From NCBI GenBank assembly GCA_903826865.1, contig CAIKGD010000073.1, forward strand, positions 1-60,596: a DNA stretch of 60,596 bases, written 5' to 3'. The notes beneath the pieces are model-generated. The model did not search any database. It saw only the letters and a list, made by a program, of their open reading frames with translations, and had not been told where the DNA came from. Shown piece after piece: positions 5,444-46,828 of the stretch. Origin of the DNA: an uncultured Verrucomicrobiota bacterium. GTDB lineage: Bacteria > Verrucomicrobiota > Kiritimatiellia > Kiritimatiellales > Tichowtungiaceae. The position numbers and the translations under genes were made by a program. Position 1 is the stretch's first letter. Each line of letters begins with the position of its first letter.

Positions 5444-6673
<1,230 letters not shown>

Positions 6674-6926: not shown

Positions 6927-7529
6927 ATGAAGTATAATGGACCCAAGGTCAAGAAGGCACGTCGTCTGGGCATTGCCCTTTCGCCGAAATGTGAAAAATT
7001 CCTCGAACGCCGCCCGCATCCCCCGGGACAGCACGGTCCCTCGCGCCGCCGCGGCAAACTGACGGACTACGGCAAACAGCTCATCGAAAAACAGCGTCTG
7101 CGGTATCAGTACAATCTGGCCGAGCGCCAGCTGCACGGCTATTACGTCAAAGCCTCGCGCAAAATCGGCAACACGGCCGACATCATGCTGCAGCTGCTTG
7201 AAACCCGCCTTGACGCCGTCGTGCTGCGTTCCGGTTTCGCCCGTTCCATCTATCAGGCCCGTCAACTGGTCGGTCACGCTCACTTCCTTGTCAACGGCAA
7301 GAAGATCAACATTCCTTCTTACCAGATGCGGGTCGGCGATGTTATCACCGTGCGCGAAAACAGCCGCGAACTCGAAATCTTCCCGTCCGCACAGCAGATT
7401 GCCAGCACACCGGCGTACCTGACGGTGGACGACAAGAAACTCACCGCCAGCCTGTGCCGCCTGCCGGAACACGGCGAAGTGCCGGTGCAGTGCGAAGCTT
7501 CGCTGGTCGTCGAGTTCTACTCGCGCTGA
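6927..7529 (+). CDS. rpsD: 30S ribosomal protein S4
   Basis: A 200-residue S4, the primary 16S rRNA-binding protein that nucleates small-subunit assembly. It begins MKYNGPKVKKARRLG, has the basic RRPHPPGQHGPSRRR N-terminal region, and carries the S4 RNA-binding domain from about residue 90 (LETRLDAVVLRSGFA, ARQLVGHAHFLVNGKK). The gene stands alone, not in the alpha operon beside rpsM, rpsK and rpoA. GGAGAG lies before the ATG. A clear intrinsic terminator follows. Confidence 0.97.
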   Translation: MKYNGPKVKKARRLGIALSPKCEKFLERRPHPPGQHGPSRRRGKLTDYGKQLIEKQRLRYQYNLAERQLHGYYVKASRKIGNTADIMLQLLETRLDAVVLRSGFARSIYQARQLVGHAHFLVNGKKINIPSYQMRVGDVITVRENSRELEIFPSAQQIASTPAYLTVDDKKLTASLCRLPEHGEVPVQCEASLVVEFYSR

Positions 7530-8838: not shown

Positions 8839-10263
8839 TCAGCGGTCAAATTCAAGGCGCTGTCCACGGACAGCGCTTTCTGCTTTTCCATTCTTCCAGA
8901 CGATTTGGCCGGAGACGATGGTGGTATCGACTGACGAACGGAAGGTGACGCCTTCGAACGGCGACCAGCCGCATTTATAGAGGATGTTTTCTTTGGCGAC
9001 GGTCTGCGGTTTATTCAGGTCAACCAGCACCAGATCGGCCCAGTAGCCTTCGCGGATGAATCCGCGCTCTTTGATGTTAAAAATGCGTGCCGGATTGTGG
9101 GCGGTTTTGGCGGCAATGGTTTCCAATGAAAGTGCGCCGCGGTGAAAGTGTTCGAGGATAGCGGGCAGGGCTGACTGAATGACCGGCATCCCGGACGGAG
9201 CGGTCCAGTAGGTTCCCTGTTTTTCCTTCAAGGTGTGCGGCGCATGGTCGGTTCCGATGGTGTCGAGGCGGTCTGTGAGCAGTCCGCGCAGCAACGCATC
9301 ACGGTCGGAGGCGCGTTTGATGGCCGGGTTGCATTTGACCAGCGCACCTTTGGTTTCATAGGCGTTGCTGTCGAAGTGCAGATAATGGATGCAGGTTTCG
9401 GCCGTGATGTTTTTGCCCGCTTCGTCGCGTTCTTCGTAAAATTCGTTTTCGCGCGGACTGCTGACACGCACGGTGAGATCGTCAAAAAGTTCAAGCTCGC
9501 GGGCTGTACTGATATGCAGGACATGCAGACGTGTGCCGTGCCTGCGGGCGAGTTCAACGGCCAGCGCGCTGGAACGGTAACAAGCCTCTTCGCTGCGGAT
9601 GAAGGGATGGGCGGCAAACGGAGTTTGGTCGCCGTAGCGCTCGCGGAATATCTGTTCATGTCTCTGGATGATACCGGCGTCTTCACAGTGCGCGGTGAGA
9701 TTGACCGGGCATTCGCGGAAGAGTTCTTCCAGAGTTTGGAAACGGTCAACCAGCATGTCGCCGGTTGACGAACCCATGTAAACTTTTACGCCGCAGATAT
9801 TCTTCGGATCGACCGCTTTGATTTCATCAAGGTTGTTAAGCGAAGCGCCGAGGTAGAAGGAATAGTTGACGGCCATTTTCTGTGCGGCGAGCGCGAACTT
9901 TTCTTCGAGCCGTTCATTGGTGACAGCGGGCGGACTGGTATTGGGCATTTCCATGACGGAGGTGACGCCCCCGGCGGCGGCGGCGCGAGACTCGCTCTGC
10001 ATGTCGCCTTTATGGGTCAGGCCCGGTTCGCGGAAGTGGACGTGGCAGTCAATCATGCCGGGCAGGAGCGCTTTGCCCTCGGCGTCGATGATGAGATCGG
10101 CCTCTGCGGAAATTGCACAGTCAATCCGGTCAATGCGTCCATGACGGATAAGGACATCGGCGGACCGGGTGATGCCTTCGTTCACTACATCGGCGTTTTT
10201 GATCAAAATGCTTGGAATGTCGGAATGCTGGAATGTTGGAATACTGGAAGAAGGACTATTCAT
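8839..10263 (-). CDS. pyrC: Dihydroorotase
   Basis: A class I dihydroorotase/amidohydrolase that cyclises carbamoyl aspartate in pyrimidine synthesis. Metal site DCHVHFREPGLTHKGD, MEMPNTSPPA, HCED, HISTA and GTDHAPHTLKEK are all present. The start is uncertain. The conserved domain begins at LIKNADVVNEG, but the frame stays open upstream to 10374 and overlaps lgt by 20 bp. That upstream part, including SIPTFQHSDIPS, is encoded by the GGAATNNN repeat and is probably not functional protein. I chose the ATG at 10261-10263; a TTG at the domain edge is possible. Last gene of the nadK-esterase-lgt-pyrC operon. Confidence 0.9.
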   Translation of the reverse strand: MNSPSSSIPTFQHSDIPSILIKNADVVNEGITRSADVLIRHGRIDRIDCAISAEADLIIDAEGKALLPGMIDCHVHFREPGLTHKGDMQSESRAAAAGGVTSVMEMPNTSPPAVTNERLEEKFALAAQKMAVNYSFYLGASLNNLDEIKAVDPKNICGVKVYMGSSTGDMLVDRFQTLEELFRECPVNLTAHCEDAGIIQRHEQIFRERYGDQTPFAAHPFIRSEEACYRSSALAVELARRHGTRLHVLHISTARELELFDDLTVRVSSPRENEFYEERDEAGKNITAETCIHYLHFDSNAYETKGALVKCNPAIKRASDRDALLRGLLTDRLDTIGTDHAPHTLKEKQGTYWTAPSGMPVIQSALPAILEHFHRGALSLETIAAKTAHNPARIFNIKERGFIREGYWADLVLVDLNKPQTVAKENILYKCGWSPFEGVTFRSSVDTTIVSGQIVWKNGKAESAVRGQRLEFDR

Positions 10264-10383
10264 GGCTGGTTCCATATACTTCATTTGATTCCCGGATGAT
10301 AAACGAATCATCCCAGTCGCCGTTTTGCTGCTTTTCCTCAAAACCATCATTCCATTATTCCTTAATTCCATCATTCCGTTGCC
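10213..10383. repeat. Inverted pair of 8-bp-periodic GGAATNNN arrays
   Basis: At about 10213-10250 the plus strand repeats GGAATGYY with an 8-bp period; at about 10347-10380 it repeats the complement, ATTCCNNN, with the same period. The two arrays face each other around roughly 95 bp and could fold into a hairpin. They cover the lgt 3' end and the start region of pyrC, adding repeat-encoded residues to the open frames of both (FQHSDIP in pyrC, NDGIKE in Lgt). Related arrays occur at about 11178-11205 and 17924-18003. Confidence 0.75.
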
Positions 10384-13908: not shown

Positions 13909-15504
13909 ATGGATATGAACGAACAGATACCGGGTGAGGAACAGGACGGCGCTTTTTTTTCCCGTGAAGCCGTTTCCGGTGTTCCGTGGATGGTGGCCAG
14001 CAAAGCGATTCTCTTCTTCGTTTATTTTGCTATTTCCGTACTGGTGGTGCGGTTCCTCGGCAGTACCCAGTACGGCGTTTATGCCATCTGTATAAACATC
14101 GGCGAATGGGCGGGCGTCTTCTGCGGGTTAGGACTGGTTTCCGCGCTTTTCCGGTTTGTGCCCGAACTGGTGGTGCAGCACAACGCCGCCGGCCTTAAAC
14201 GGCTGATCTGGAAATCGCTCTGGCTGCAGCTTGCGGCGACGGTTGCGGGTACGGTGATCATGGTGCTCATGAAACCGTGGCTCAACAACTGGTTCCACAT
14301 TGATTTCGGCCCCTATCTGCTGCTGACCGGACTGCTGATCGGTTTCAGTCTGCTGAAAGAAAATGTCTCTGCAGTAGAAACATCGCTGTTTCGCACCAAA
14401 CACATCTCCATACTCACCCTTGCCCGCGGAGTGCTCTGGCTCGCGCTGATTTGCACTATGTTGCGCGTTGCACCGACCGCAGGCTCCGCCATCTGGACGC
14501 AGATTCTTTCGTATGCGCCGGTCTATATCATCGGTGCGTGGCTCATGTTCCGCTACATCTACAGCTTTAACTGGCGCTCGCCGCCTTGCGGCATCGGCCG
14601 CCTCCGCACCGCGCAATATTCTTTTGCCATTCTCAGCAACACCGTTGTGCGCATGATGATGATGAAATATACCGAGGTGTTTTTCCTCGGCCTCACCGTC
14701 ACGCCTGCCGTGATCGGAGCTTATGACCTGGGCTATTCCCTGCCGCCGCTGGTCATCTTCTTTATACCGGATTCACTGCACATGCTCTTCACCTCCGGTT
14801 TTGCCGAGGCCTACAGCCGCGACCAGAACTGCCTGGGACGGCTCATCAAGGCCTACTACAAAATGACGATCCTTTTTATGATGCCGCTGGCCATCTTCGG
14901 CTTCTTTTTCGCGCCGGCCGCCGTGATTATGGTATATGGCGATTCCATGGCTCTTGCCGGAGTTCTTGCATCCGGCTTCTGCATCATTCATCTGCTGTCT
15001 ACAATCTCTACGCCGCTGTCCATGGCCATCAAGGCCAAGGAGAAAATCATGGCCACGATGCCCGTCATGATTCTCCAGATCGTGATCAATCTGATTCTCG
15101 ACTGGCTGCTGATCGTCCACTATAACTTCGGCGTCTGGGGCGGTATGGGCGCGGTGGCCGGAACATTCCTGATTTCCGCGCCGATCCGCCTCTCGGTTGT
15201 CAAAAAAATTCTGGGCGGCATCTTTTTCCCGACGGCGTACATGGTCCGCATGGCCTTTACGCTTTTTATTCTGGCCAGCATCATGATTGTGGTTTCCGAT
15301 CATTGGCACCTGCTGAGCCTGTTTGAAACCCGCTGGCTTAACGTGGCCACCCTCTTTGGACTCGGCGCCATTTATCTGCTGCTTTTCTTTGCCGCTATCC
15401 GGATGTTCAAACTGGTGCGCGACGAAGATGTTTCCGACTTCCGGTCTCTCAATATCAAAAAACTGAATTTTGTTTTTGATCTACTCAGCCCCCGCGCAAA
15501 ATAG
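13909..15504 (+). CDS. Polysaccharide flippase (Wzx/MATE-like)
   Basis: A 531-residue polytopic membrane protein of the MOP superfamily. About 12-14 hydrophobic segments follow a short soluble N-terminus; the segment MVASKAILFFVYFAISVLVVRFLGSTQYGVYAIC is typical of Wzx-like lipid-linked oligosaccharide flippases. It would move lipid-linked glycan units across the inner membrane. It is probably cotranscribed with the preceding glycosyltransferase. No polymerase or ligase gene is nearby. Confidence 0.85.
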   Translation: MDMNEQIPGEEQDGAFFSREAVSGVPWMVASKAILFFVYFAISVLVVRFLGSTQYGVYAICINIGEWAGVFCGLGLVSALFRFVPELVVQHNAAGLKRLIWKSLWLQLAATVAGTVIMVLMKPWLNNWFHIDFGPYLLLTGLLIGFSLLKENVSAVETSLFRTKHISILTLARGVLWLALICTMLRVAPTAGSAIWTQILSYAPVYIIGAWLMFRYIYSFNWRSPPCGIGRLRTAQYSFAILSNTVVRMMMMKYTEVFFLGLTVTPAVIGAYDLGYSLPPLVIFFIPDSLHMLFTSGFAEAYSRDQNCLGRLIKAYYKMTILFMMPLAIFGFFFAPAAVIMVYGDSMALAGVLASGFCIIHLLSTISTPLSMAIKAKEKIMATMPVMILQIVINLILDWLLIVHYNFGVWGGMGAVAGTFLISAPIRLSVVKKILGGIFFPTAYMVRMAFTLFILASIMIVVSDHWHLLSLFETRWLNVATLFGLGAIYLLLFFAAIRMFKLVRDEDVSDFRSLNIKKLNFVFDLLSPRAK

Positions 15505-43471: not shown

Positions 43472-43548
43472 AGGTAACTACCTTTATCTTGCTCGGAAGT
43501 CAAACTTGCGGTCTGAAAGTTGTTGGTCATTCTGGCGCTATTAAGCGG

Positions 43549-43576
43549 TTGAAATCCGGCGGGTGTGTGGTACAAA
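43549..43576 (+). promoter_or_regulatory. Candidate promoter of the kinase operon
   Basis: TTGAAA (43549-43554) and TACAAA (43571-43576) are separated by 16 bp, about 30 bp before the kinase start codon. Confidence 0.35.
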
Positions 43577-43605
43577 TTGTCCCGGTTTAAGCGGAGTATT
43601 TCCCT

Positions 43606-44781
43606 GTGAAATCGAAGTTTTTAGACAAATTAATCAATCGTCTTGAGCAGATGGACGCCGACAGCGTTCAGGCGCAATTTCTGCATCTGGCGCGTGAGAA
43701 GGGGTTGCTGGAGACGATTTTTCAGGCGATTCAGGAAGGTATCGTGGTGGTCGGGCGCGGCGCGCGCATCCGCTATGCCAACCGTATGGCGGAAGCGCTT
43801 TTCGGTTTCAAACTGGATGCGGCCGAAGGCCAGCCGATTGCCCGTTATATCCGCGACATTGACTGGGATAAGGTGCTCAGTCTGGACGGCGACGAATGGG
43901 AACGGCTGGTTCGCCGGGAAATCGAGGTGACTTACCCGGATCACCGTTTCGTGGAATTTTATGTAGTGCCGCTTTCAGCCATTGAAGAACGCGAGCAGGG
44001 GGCGGTGGTGATTTTCCGCGATGTGACGCGTGAGCGCGAGACAACAGCCGAGTCCATCGAATCGGAACGAATGAAGGCGCTGACGCTGCTGGCGGCGGGC
44101 GTGGCGCACGAGATCGGTAATCCGCTCAATGCGGTGACGATTCATCTGCAGCTGATGGAGCGCGAGCTGGCGGAACTGGCCGATTCCGAAGCGCGCGAAA
44201 GTCTGAAGGAGATGGTTGAGGTTTCAAAACGCGAAGTGCACCGCCTTGACCGGATTATTACGCAGTTTCTGCGGGCGATCCGTCCGTCGCTTCCCGACCG
44301 TAAACCGGTGCAGATGGAGCGGCTGCTGGACGAAACGCTGGAGCTGCTGCACTACGAAATTGAAAACCGCCGCATTCTGGTGGAGCGCATGCAGCCGGAA
44401 CATATTTCTCCGGTTCCGGCTGACGAGACGCAGGTGAAGCAGGCTTTCTTCAACATCATCAAAAACGCGATTCAGGCGATGGATGACAGCGGCATTCTGA
44501 AAATCAGCATCGAAGTGTCGGCGCGTTTTGTGAGTATCTGTTTTGCGGACAACGGGCCGGGCATTTCTCCGGAGAATCTCGGCGCGATCTATGAGGCCTA
44601 TCACACGACCAAGGCGACCGGTTCGGGGCTTGGTCTGATGATTGTGCAGAGGATTCTGCGCGACCACGGCGGTGAGATCGAAATTTGCAGTACGCCGGAG
44701 CGCGGCACGGCCTTTACGCTGCATTTCCCGCGTGATGATGTGCGGATGTCGCTGCTGGAAGCGCCAAAGCGTGACGAGTGA
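43606..44781 (+). CDS. PAS-domain sensor histidine kinase, NtrB-like
   Basis: A 391-residue soluble kinase. A PAS domain at about residues 35-145 (LETIFQAIQEGIVVVGRGAR...) is followed by HisKA with phospho-acceptor His in LAAGVAHEIGNPLNAV near residue 168. The HATPase domain follows: FFNIIKNAIQAM, FADNGPGIS, GSGLGLMIVQRIL. No membrane helix is seen. It starts with GTG after GGAG. The partner regulator is 620 bp downstream, past the inserted element. Its last residues (RDE) and stop are encoded by repeat sequence. Confidence 0.93.
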   Translation: MKSKFLDKLINRLEQMDADSVQAQFLHLAREKGLLETIFQAIQEGIVVVGRGARIRYANRMAEALFGFKLDAAEGQPIARYIRDIDWDKVLSLDGDEWERLVRREIEVTYPDHRFVEFYVVPLSAIEEREQGAVVIFRDVTRERETTAESIESERMKALTLLAAGVAHEIGNPLNAVTIHLQLMERELAELADSEARESLKEMVEVSKREVHRLDRIITQFLRAIRPSLPDRKPVQMERLLDETLELLHYEIENRRILVERMQPEHISPVPADETQVKQAFFNIIKNAIQAMDDSGILKISIEVSARFVSICFADNGPGISPENLGAIYEAYHTTKATGSGLGLMIVQRILRDHGGEIEICSTPERGTAFTLHFPRDDVRMSLLEAPKRDE

Positions 44782-45380
44782 TGCGTAATCCGTAACGAGT
44801 AATACGTAAACTGGAGAAAGATAAATGACGTATAACGAGTGGGAATCAACTGTTCCGGGAGTCATCCGACAGGATGTCTTGTGGACTGTGACAGCTTATC
44901 GGCTGGCTCTTTTTGTAAGTGATATTACATGGCATGACGTTCAGCGACTGGCCAAAGAACCCTGTACCCGCTCTTTGGCCGATCAATTATACCGTTCTGC
45001 AGGCTCGATATGCGCAAATGTTGAAGAGGGTTATTCAAAAATAAGCGCAAAAGATCGCGCCCGGTTTTATGAGTATTCCCTTGGGTCAGCCAGGGAAAGC
45101 CGCGGTTGGTTCTATCGTGGACGCCATGTGCTTGGTGAAGAAGTTACAAACCATCGGATGAATTTGCTGACAGAAATAATCCGGCTGTTACTGACGATGG
45201 TTCCTGAGCAGAGGAGCAGCACGGTGTGTGAAGATGCGGTGGAGTATTGTTCGGCCAGCTGGAAGGCGGAAGAGGCTCCTTGCAGCGAATGCGTAACGAG
45301 TAATACGTAATTCAGGAAAGAGAGAACTGAAAGAAGAGCGTTTTTCAGTTACGTATTACTCGTTACGAATTACGTAATGC
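44770..45380 (+). mobile_element. IVS-like element with four-helix-bundle gene between kinase and regulator
   Basis: Inverted arms at 44784-44809 and 45349-45374 match at 25 of 26 positions; their core is CGTAACGAGTAATACGTAA. A diverged tandem copy precedes the left arm (44770-44788) and encodes the kinase C-terminus. A direct copy at 45292-45310 encodes the last residues and stop of the internal gene. No clear target duplication is visible, only a weak GACGA on both sides. No transposase is present. The arms would pair in the polycistronic mRNA and put the gene in the loop. Confidence 0.75.
44825..45310 (+). CDS. Four-helix-bundle protein (23S rRNA IVS protein family)
   Basis: A 161-residue member of the family found inside 23S rRNA intervening sequences (S23/four helix bundle). 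The core LADQLYRSAGSICANVEEGYSKISAKDRARFYEYSLGSARE matches the family pattern LxxQLxRAAxSIxANIAEG...FxxxLxIAxGSxxE. The function is unknown; it is probably a small helical oligomer. The last residues, VTSNT, come from the repeat. It is A+T-richer than the kinase. GGAGAAAG precedes the ATG. Confidence 0.9.
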   Translation: MTYNEWESTVPGVIRQDVLWTVTAYRLALFVSDITWHDVQRLAKEPCTRSLADQLYRSAGSICANVEEGYSKISAKDRARFYEYSLGSARESRGWFYRGRHVLGEEVTNHRMNLLTEIIRLLLTMVPEQRSSTVCEDAVEYCSASWKAEEAPCSECVTSNT

Positions 45381-45400
45381 GGACGAAGGAGTTGATATAT

Positions 45401-46765
45401 ATGAACACAAAACCCCTTATTCTCATCGTGGACGACGAAAAGAACACGCGTGAAGGGCTGGCGCGGGCGCTGCGCCGGTCGTATGAAGTGCTTGTGGCGG
45501 AAAGCGGGTCGGCGGCTTTGAATATTCTGAGCGAGCGTCCGGTTGATGTGATGCTGAGCGATCTGCGGATGCCCGGCATGGACGGAATGACGCTGATGCA
45601 GCGCGCGCTGGCCGGGTCGCCGCAGCTGGTCTGCATTCTGCTCACCGCCTACGGGAATATTGAAACGGCGGTGGAGGCCATGCGGCGCGGCGCGACCGAT
45701 TTTCTGACGAAGCCGGTGAACCTGGAGCAGCTGGAGCTGGTGCTGCAGCGCGTATTGCGTTCGCGCCGGGCGGAAACGGAAAACCGCCAGCTTCACGAGC
45801 AGCTGGACAGTAAGTTCGGGATTGAGAATATCATCGGCAATTCGCCGGAGATGCAGCAGGTTTTTGATACGGTGCGGCAGGTGGCCGCCTCGCGGGCGAC
45901 CGTGCTGATTCAGGGCGAGAGCGGAACCGGCAAAGAACTGGTTGCCAAGGCGATTCACCGGCTTAGCCCGCGCAAGCACGGAGCTTTTATACCGGTGCAT
46001 TGCGCGGCACTTTCTTCGACGCTGCTGGAGAGCGAGCTGTTTGGCCATGAGAAGGGGGCTTTTACCGGCGCGGCGGAACGGCGTAAAGGACGGTTTGAGC
46101 TGGCGGACGGCGGTTCTCTGTTTCTGGATGAGATCGGCGAAATCGATGCCAGCGTACAGGTGAAAATCCTGCGCGCGCTGGAAGAGCGGCGCTTTGAGCG
46201 CGTCGGCGGACAGGAGTCTATTGATGTGGATACGCGGCTGATTGCGGCAACCAACCGCGACCTCAAGAAGATGGTGGCGGAGGGTAAATTCCGTGAAGAT
46301 CTCTATTACCGGCTCTATGTGGTAATGATTCATCTGCCGGCATTGCGTGAACGCAAGAGTGACATCCCGCTGCTGCTCAAACATTTTCTGACAGTGTTTA
46401 ATCAGGAAAATGGCCGCACGATTGAGGGATTTTCTCCGGACGCGCTCGATCTGCTGACCGCTTATCCGTGGCCGGGCAATGTGCGCGAGCTGCGCAATGT
46501 TGTAGAACAAATGGTGGTGCTGTCCCGGTCGCAGCGTATCAGTGCGCGCGATCTGCCGGTCCATGTCCGCGAAGCGGGCGGTCCGGACGGTACGCTCCAG
46601 ACCGGAAACGGTACTCTGGAGGAGATGGAAAAACAGGCCATCCTGCTGGCGCTCAAGGAGACAGGCGGCAATCGCACTCATGCGGCGGACAAACTGGGCA
46701 TCAGCCGGCGTACGTTGCACCGCAAAATTGCAACATATGGTTTTACCGAAGTCGACGGAGTTTAA
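45401..46765 (+). CDS. Sigma-54-dependent response regulator, NtrC family
   Basis: A 454-residue enhancer-binding protein. The receiver domain has DDEKNTREG, phospho-acceptor Asp in VMLSDLRMPGMDG, and LLTAYGN and TKPVN. The AAA+ domain has Walker A GESGTGKELVAKAI, the sigma-54 loop GAFTGAAERRKGRF, and DEIGEIDASVQ. A Fis-type helix-turn-helix ends it (GGNRTHAADKLGISRRTLHR). It would activate sigma-54 promoters under control of the upstream kinase. The ATG at 45401 is chosen for AAGGAG nine bases upstream; an earlier in-frame ATG lies in the repeat. Confidence 0.95.
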   Translation: MNTKPLILIVDDEKNTREGLARALRRSYEVLVAESGSAALNILSERPVDVMLSDLRMPGMDGMTLMQRALAGSPQLVCILLTAYGNIETAVEAMRRGATDFLTKPVNLEQLELVLQRVLRSRRAETENRQLHEQLDSKFGIENIIGNSPEMQQVFDTVRQVAASRATVLIQGESGTGKELVAKAIHRLSPRKHGAFIPVHCAALSSTLLESELFGHEKGAFTGAAERRKGRFELADGGSLFLDEIGEIDASVQVKILRALEERRFERVGGQESIDVDTRLIAATNRDLKKMVAEGKFREDLYYRLYVVMIHLPALRERKSDIPLLLKHFLTVFNQENGRTIEGFSPDALDLLTAYPWPGNVRELRNVVEQMVVLSRSQRISARDLPVHVREAGGPDGTLQTGNGTLEEMEKQAILLALKETGGNRTHAADKLGISRRTLHRKIATYGFTEVDGV

Positions 46766-46828
46766 GATTGAAGAAGCGGGAGTGTTCAAGGATGCTCTGA
46801 GCACTATTTACCGGAGCCGGAGAACAGT

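Follow-up and report, generated by a model that had tools for sequence, protein, structure and literature searches.

A four-helix-bundle gene lies between inverted heptad arrays at a kinase-regulator junction

The window analyzed here, a stretch of 60,596 nucleotides from the genome of an uncultured Verrucomicrobiota bacterium, contains a two-component locus whose kinase and regulator genes are separated by a third gene, with all three on one strand. The ORF listing, family profiles, and the corresponding junctions of relatives identify an upstream histidine kinase gene (positions 43606 to 44781, forward strand; PAS, HisKA, and HATPase domains) and a downstream NtrC-type response regulator gene (45401 to 46765, forward strand; receiver, sigma-54 activator, and HTH_8 domains). 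The host is therefore a kinase/NtrC-type operon and not rRNA, in agreement with the original prediction. The gene between them (44825 to 45310, forward strand; 161 aa) was recognized as a four-helix-bundle gene from profile matches and a structure model, and it is the sole ORF between the flanking repeats with a family match.

These repeats form periodic arrays. The 5′ array, (CGTRAYN)n (44770 to 44809, forward strand), reads in sevens as CGTGACG, AGTGATG, CGTAATC, CGTAACG, AGTAATA, and CGTAA, a degenerate 7-bp periodicity. The 3′ array (45349 to 45381, reverse strand) is an inverted copy that stays in heptad phase to approximately 45381. Arms 44784 to 44809 and 45349 to 45374 are complementary at 25 of 26 bases, just as had been claimed for the 26-bp inverted ends. 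The last residues and stop codon of the kinase are encoded within the 5′ array, in the copy at 44770 to 44788. This stretch had been described as a diverged tandem copy; the kinase stop codon does lie inside it, but it and the 19-bp “core” are better described as one 7-bp periodic array. A direct copy of the array (45288 to 45310, forward strand), also complementary to 45349 to 45371, supplies the C-terminal end and stop codon of the four-helix-bundle gene, as proposed earlier. Allowing up to 3 mismatches, the 19-bp core occurs four times in the window, always at this element (0.01 copies expected from dinucleotide shuffles). A Shine-Dalgarno-like AAGGAG of the regulator gene (45386 to 45391, forward strand) lies outside the element and was compared with the empty sites described below. 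No sigma-70-like promoter was found, and Rfam gave no structured RNA match in 43500 to 46800.

The internal protein scores 62.7 bits against TIGR02436 (cutoff, 24) and 55 bits against PF05635 (cutoff, 33.8); with both cutoffs passed, its assignment to the family encoded in 23S rRNA intervening sequences (IVSs) stands. An AlphaFold model (mean pLDDT, 87) predicts a four-helix bundle, confident for residues 1 to 134, followed by a low-confidence tail (residues 135 to 161) whose end is encoded by the direct array copy. The best structural matches in the PDB are 2RLD (BT_0352) and 2GSC (XCC0516), both solved as proteins of unknown function, and a profile search found these two as the only PDB relatives. 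Those intact pairs that allowed a calculation gave a dN/dS of approximately 0.1, with synonymous sites often saturated, indicating that the protein is in use.

The cassette was inserted as a unit and is absent from the same junction in some relatives

We read the kinase-regulator junction in 30 kinase loci, from the source genome and 29 relatives, one of which (G001) was unreadable. The original prediction held that the element is an insertion for which relatives should retain empty sites. Such sites exist, both within one genus and across the order, and the junction is not fixed: in 12 of the 30 loci (G003, G005, G008, G009, and G013; G016, G017, G019, G022, G023, G034, and G041) the regulator follows the kinase stop codon directly, by overlap or abutment, whereas 14 carry the element or a relative of it, intact or decayed, at exactly the same position. 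Broken copies include two with frameshifts (G042 and G033), one with an internal deletion (G037), and a remnant (G018). Inverted repeats without a gene lie at the junctions of G010 and G027, and a 71-nt spacer at that of G032. No recent jump was seen among the junction copies, which are old and in several cases broken. Separately, spacers of the genus contain hairpins of a second type, with TTCCAA...TTGGAA halves, at the G010 junction (L038) and near position 1520 of L029.

Across the filled genomes of the genus, the array mostly gives the kinase an RDE* or RNE* terminus. The nearest empty genomes have KENKE* or a similar kinase terminus, with the Shine-Dalgarno sequence of the regulator inside it. 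The empty sites belong to other species and are too diverged to fix the exact ends of the element or a target-site duplication. Within the genus, this protein subtype occurs only at the kinase-regulator junction, in 5 of 14 genomes. We conclude that the cassette is a unit insertion between adjacent codirectional genes, which gave the upstream gene a new end and stop codon while the downstream gene kept its own ribosome-binding site.

Two types of element occupy this junction, type A (arms CGTAACGAGTAAT...) and type B (arms GCGTATTGCGTACT...), each present in both host families. Their distribution is discordant with the host phylogeny: the kinase tree separates the host families at 100/100, whereas a one-family clade is rejected for the four-helix-bundle protein (AU test, P = 0.0003 to 0.004). 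The ratio of protein to kinase divergence is 0.9 to 1.0 between families versus approximately 1.7 within them, a difference to which saturation may contribute. Reading by eye revealed A-arm remnants beside the B copies of G007, G012, G026, and G033, suggesting that A and B once lay together. The protein tree was set aside as proof of lateral transfer, since both types split internally by host family and A-arm remnants flank some B copies. An ancestral tandem pair followed by differential loss is a possible source of the mixed types, beside lateral movement.

Cognate inverted arrays flank most sampled members of the protein family

Scoring of the architecture covered 199 distinct family genes, taken from the source genome, from other members of its genus and class, and from 80 GTDB loci in phyla that include Bacteroidota, Nitrospirota, Planctomycetota, and Desulfobacterota. 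Genes of the broad sample were picked by their similarity to a single canonical member, since aligned diverse members proved too variable for scanning the collection. For each gene, the upstream flank was aligned with the reverse complement of the downstream flank by Smith-Waterman (SW) local alignment, and ORFs from the same loci served as controls, 266 of them distant from any family gene. A score of at least 16 was reached by 79% of the 199 family genes versus 21% of the 266 controls (P ≈ 1e−37), and at a score of at least 14, 88% of the family genes lie between mutually inverted repeats. Per-gene shuffles gave P ≤ 0.01 for 64% of family genes versus 3.5% of controls. When arms were cross-paired between different genes, the fraction scoring at least 16 fell to 10%; the pairing of the arms is therefore cognate. 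Periodicity was raised only at lags 7, 8, and 14 among lags 3 to 14. The arrays are also polar, with G exceeding C in the 5′ arm in 146 of 156 cases (P = 4e−32), and the upstream neighbor is codirectional in 93% of cases with a near neighbor on each side. Direct repeats were rejected as a family feature: direct similarity between upstream and downstream flanks was no higher than in controls.

In 24 Flavobacteriaceae-like genomes, a single orthologous site has arms that vary among species, and cognate arms pair better than noncognate ones (mean scores, 23.7 versus 18.8; permutation P = 5e−5). All eight plasmid cases inspected have arms; two of these elements lie within cas operons, one separating cas6 from cas4 and the other cas10 from cmr3. 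In the source genome, which has 18 TIGR02436 matches, inspection by eye showed most family genes to be flanked by short 7-bp repeats that have an inverted counterpart, the heptad differing from gene to gene. The 19-bp core had been expected near other four-helix-bundle genes. It does recur at orthologous copies and at three gene-less sites, but as an exact core it is absent from the other four-helix-bundle loci of the source genome, where only this element and the three gene-less sites have it. A single family-wide end sequence is accordingly rejected; what is shared is the architecture. Most sampled family members share this cassette architecture, with gene-specific repeats that codiverge on both sides.

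Arm complementarity looks like a property of the DNA

In mRNA the arms could form a long stem enclosing the gene in its loop, the layout of an rRNA IVS. The predicted RNA fold does pair the arms (z = −4.05), and to this extent the proposed stem is upheld. If an RNA stem were under selection, G·U mismatches would, on general grounds, be expected to outnumber A·C mismatches on the transcribed strand. Over 158 elements, arm mismatches comprised 70 of the G·U type and 73 of the A·C type. This absence of a G·U excess favors a DNA-level inverted repeat over selection on an mRNA stem and weakens the RNA-level part of the claim.

An RNA-level IVS, in which RNase III cuts such a stem and separates the kinase, four-helix-bundle, and regulator transcripts, with selection acting on the stem, nevertheless draws some support beyond the fold itself: the elements lie mostly among codirectional genes, and the rRNA IVS of Coxiella forms a 28-bp stem that is cut by RNase III (PMC4990558). 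Set against these points are the balanced mismatches, where RNA selection on one strand should favor G·U, and the gene-less arms that also occur inside coding sequence, for example in enzyme linkers, where cutting of the mRNA would be harmful. We consider this explanation unlikely. The arm complementarity looks like a DNA property, and we favor a DNA-level role, in which the arms would be the ends of the element, protein-binding sites, or sequences kept alike by template switching.

Gene-less hairpins outnumber gene-bearing units

The core of the element occurs at three gene-less sites, namely, the accD-folC spacer (L027), L028, and L029, and at L029 the array codes for the beginning of a sequence that resembles a signal peptide. 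Heptad or octad arrays distant from family genes numbered 21 in 457 kb of the source genome and 20 in 284 kb of G003. In G097, where the family gene was not found, two contigs hold approximately 14 such arrays; in G016 and G046, which also lack the family gene, there were no convincing gene-less arrays. A simple link between the number of family genes and gene-less hairpins was therefore discarded, since G016 and G046 fit it and G097 does not. Gene-less hairpins of the same type are dispersed in both sampled genomes of the genus and outnumber gene-bearing units.

Individual cases vary in setting. At 10207 to 10381 of the window, a gene-less octad (GGAATGNT) inverted repeat lies between lgt-like and dihydroorotase-like genes and overlaps their ends. 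In L246, genes resembling those for pyruvate dehydrogenase E2 and lipoamide dehydrogenase carry heptad inverted repeats (5499 to 5650 and 7337 to 7435) in frame in their linkers. A phage-portal-like gene in L241 has several GGTCAGA heptad arrays, direct and inverted, at its end and downstream of it (14750 to 15470), and GGTAAAT heptad hairpins are clustered in two contigs (L305 and L318) of G097, a genome without a detected TIGR02436 gene.

A putative mobile cassette and its alternatives

On balance, the locus is likely to be a small, IVS-like mobile cassette, with a four-helix-bundle gene between inverted, G-polar arrays of 7-bp (elsewhere 8-bp) units. We infer that the four-helix-bundle protein has a role in mobility. 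The arrays would be the DNA ends of the element, and an oligomer of the protein could bind them, or bind the single-stranded hairpin at a replication fork, and promote copying of the hairpin into new sites with the help of the host's own enzymes for replication and recombination. The arms would be kept alike by switching of templates between them while the heptads expand and drift. Gene-less hairpins may be nonautonomous derivatives of gene-bearing forms, and the 23S rRNA IVS would be such a cassette situated in an rRNA helix. Counting against a mobile cassette are the lack of an encoded recombinase, the age and decay of the junction copies and the absence of a recent jump among them, the possible tandem ancestry of the mixed types, the choice of the broad sample by similarity, and G097, with its heptad hairpins and no family gene found.

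That same genome would be easier to account for if another agent moved the hairpins, and Y1 transposases are the main rival to the four-helix-bundle protein in that role. RAYT-like enzymes of this kind might move heptad hairpins in the manner of REPINs, with the four-helix-bundle gene a passenger that some hairpins acquired. Y1 transposase matches occur in all 14 genus genomes, and gene-less hairpins exceed gene-bearing ones as REPINs exceed RAYTs. A passenger, however, would not be expected within cognate heptad arms across Bacteroidota, Cyanobacteriota, Nitrospirota, and other phyla, and the arms are degenerate 7- or 8-bp arrays that differ for each gene, so we regard this scenario as improbable. 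Slightly less probable again is an origin of the arrays as by-products of slippage and quasi-palindrome correction in spacers, spots that the gene merely tolerates or prefers while its protein serves an unrelated cellular function. As general mechanisms, slippage and template switching would account for tandem heptads and codivergence of arms without selection, and the low dN/dS is compatible with a cellular function; yet controls from the same loci lack arms, the polarity is fixed relative to the gene, and empty sites lack both the arrays and the gene. The old and conserved junction position across an order, together with purifying selection, might instead point to a fixed regulatory module, in which the protein adjusts expression of the host operon by binding the repeats that flank its own gene. 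The patchy distribution at this junction, with its empty and broken copies, and the presence of other family members in unrelated operons make such a module very improbable.

Relation to known elements and repeats

If the mobile-cassette reading is correct, this is an element without a recognizable nuclease. On this view, the classic 23S rRNA IVS appears to be a single instance of a far broader class of small mobile elements. IVSs with an S23p ORF (Coxiella and Leptospira; PMC4990558) share with the cassette a gene of the same family enclosed by complementary ends, and insertion as a unit that leaves the host gene usable. The cassette differs in lying outside the 23S rRNA gene, in a protein-coding operon, in having degenerate 7-bp arrays as ends, and in arm mismatches without a sign of RNA-strand selection. 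REPIN-RAYT and MITE systems likewise combine many gene-less inverted-repeat units with fewer gene-bearing ones; in contrast, the gene of the cassette encodes a four-helix bundle with no known nuclease, and its heptad or octad repeats are gene specific. The element contains no Y1 gene, such genes lying elsewhere in the genome, and the one ORF with a family match between its arms is not a transposase, which sets it apart from insertion sequences and MITEs.

Intergenic 7-bp tandem arrays like those of the cassette have been described as the heptameric repeats of Xanthomonas and Nostoc, often in inverted pairs in Xanthomonas (PMC4692102), and as the TAACTGA repeats of Beggiatoaceae (PMC4679880). 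A term search of these two papers returned no mention of four-helix-bundle or S23 proteins, and no gene is tied to the arrays there. Heptamer repeats and IVS proteins are each already known. We found no paper joining the two in the open-licence literature, and earlier notice elsewhere is possible. More tentatively, TIGR02436 proteins may be mobility or maintenance factors of pan-bacterial, recombinase-less elements with self-diversifying inverted heptad or octad ends, a class that would take in 23S rRNA IVSs as well as the heptamer repeats known from Xanthomonas, cyanobacteria, and Beggiatoaceae. Such a system would bear both on what IVS proteins do and on how intergenic heptamer repeats arose. 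If protein family and repeat type do belong together, the IVS is no longer a peculiarity of rRNA, a context emerges for many genes annotated as “four helix bundle protein,” and whether the protein binds and moves its own heptads becomes testable.

Other associations of the protein were considered and rejected. The accessory protein Avd of diversity-generating retroelements has the same fold (8UBE and 4DWL match the model with a TM of approximately 0.8 on the length of those target structures), and the relation of PF05635 to Avd has already been noted (PMC10053308); the 98% complete source genome has no PF00078 (RVT_1) match, which argues against a diversity-generating retroelement or movement driven by reverse transcriptase. 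For anti-phage defense, the canonical member had no PADLOC match, and 1 of 13 gave one weak match (0.0048) to a restriction-enzyme model; for phage cargo, there was no match in 50,697 phage records. Finally, several genus genomes encode longer proteins of approximately 250 to 300 aa with a partial TIGR02436-like segment (L022 and L023, from G000:C42 and G000:C2, respectively), which may constitute a separate chromosomal subfamily.
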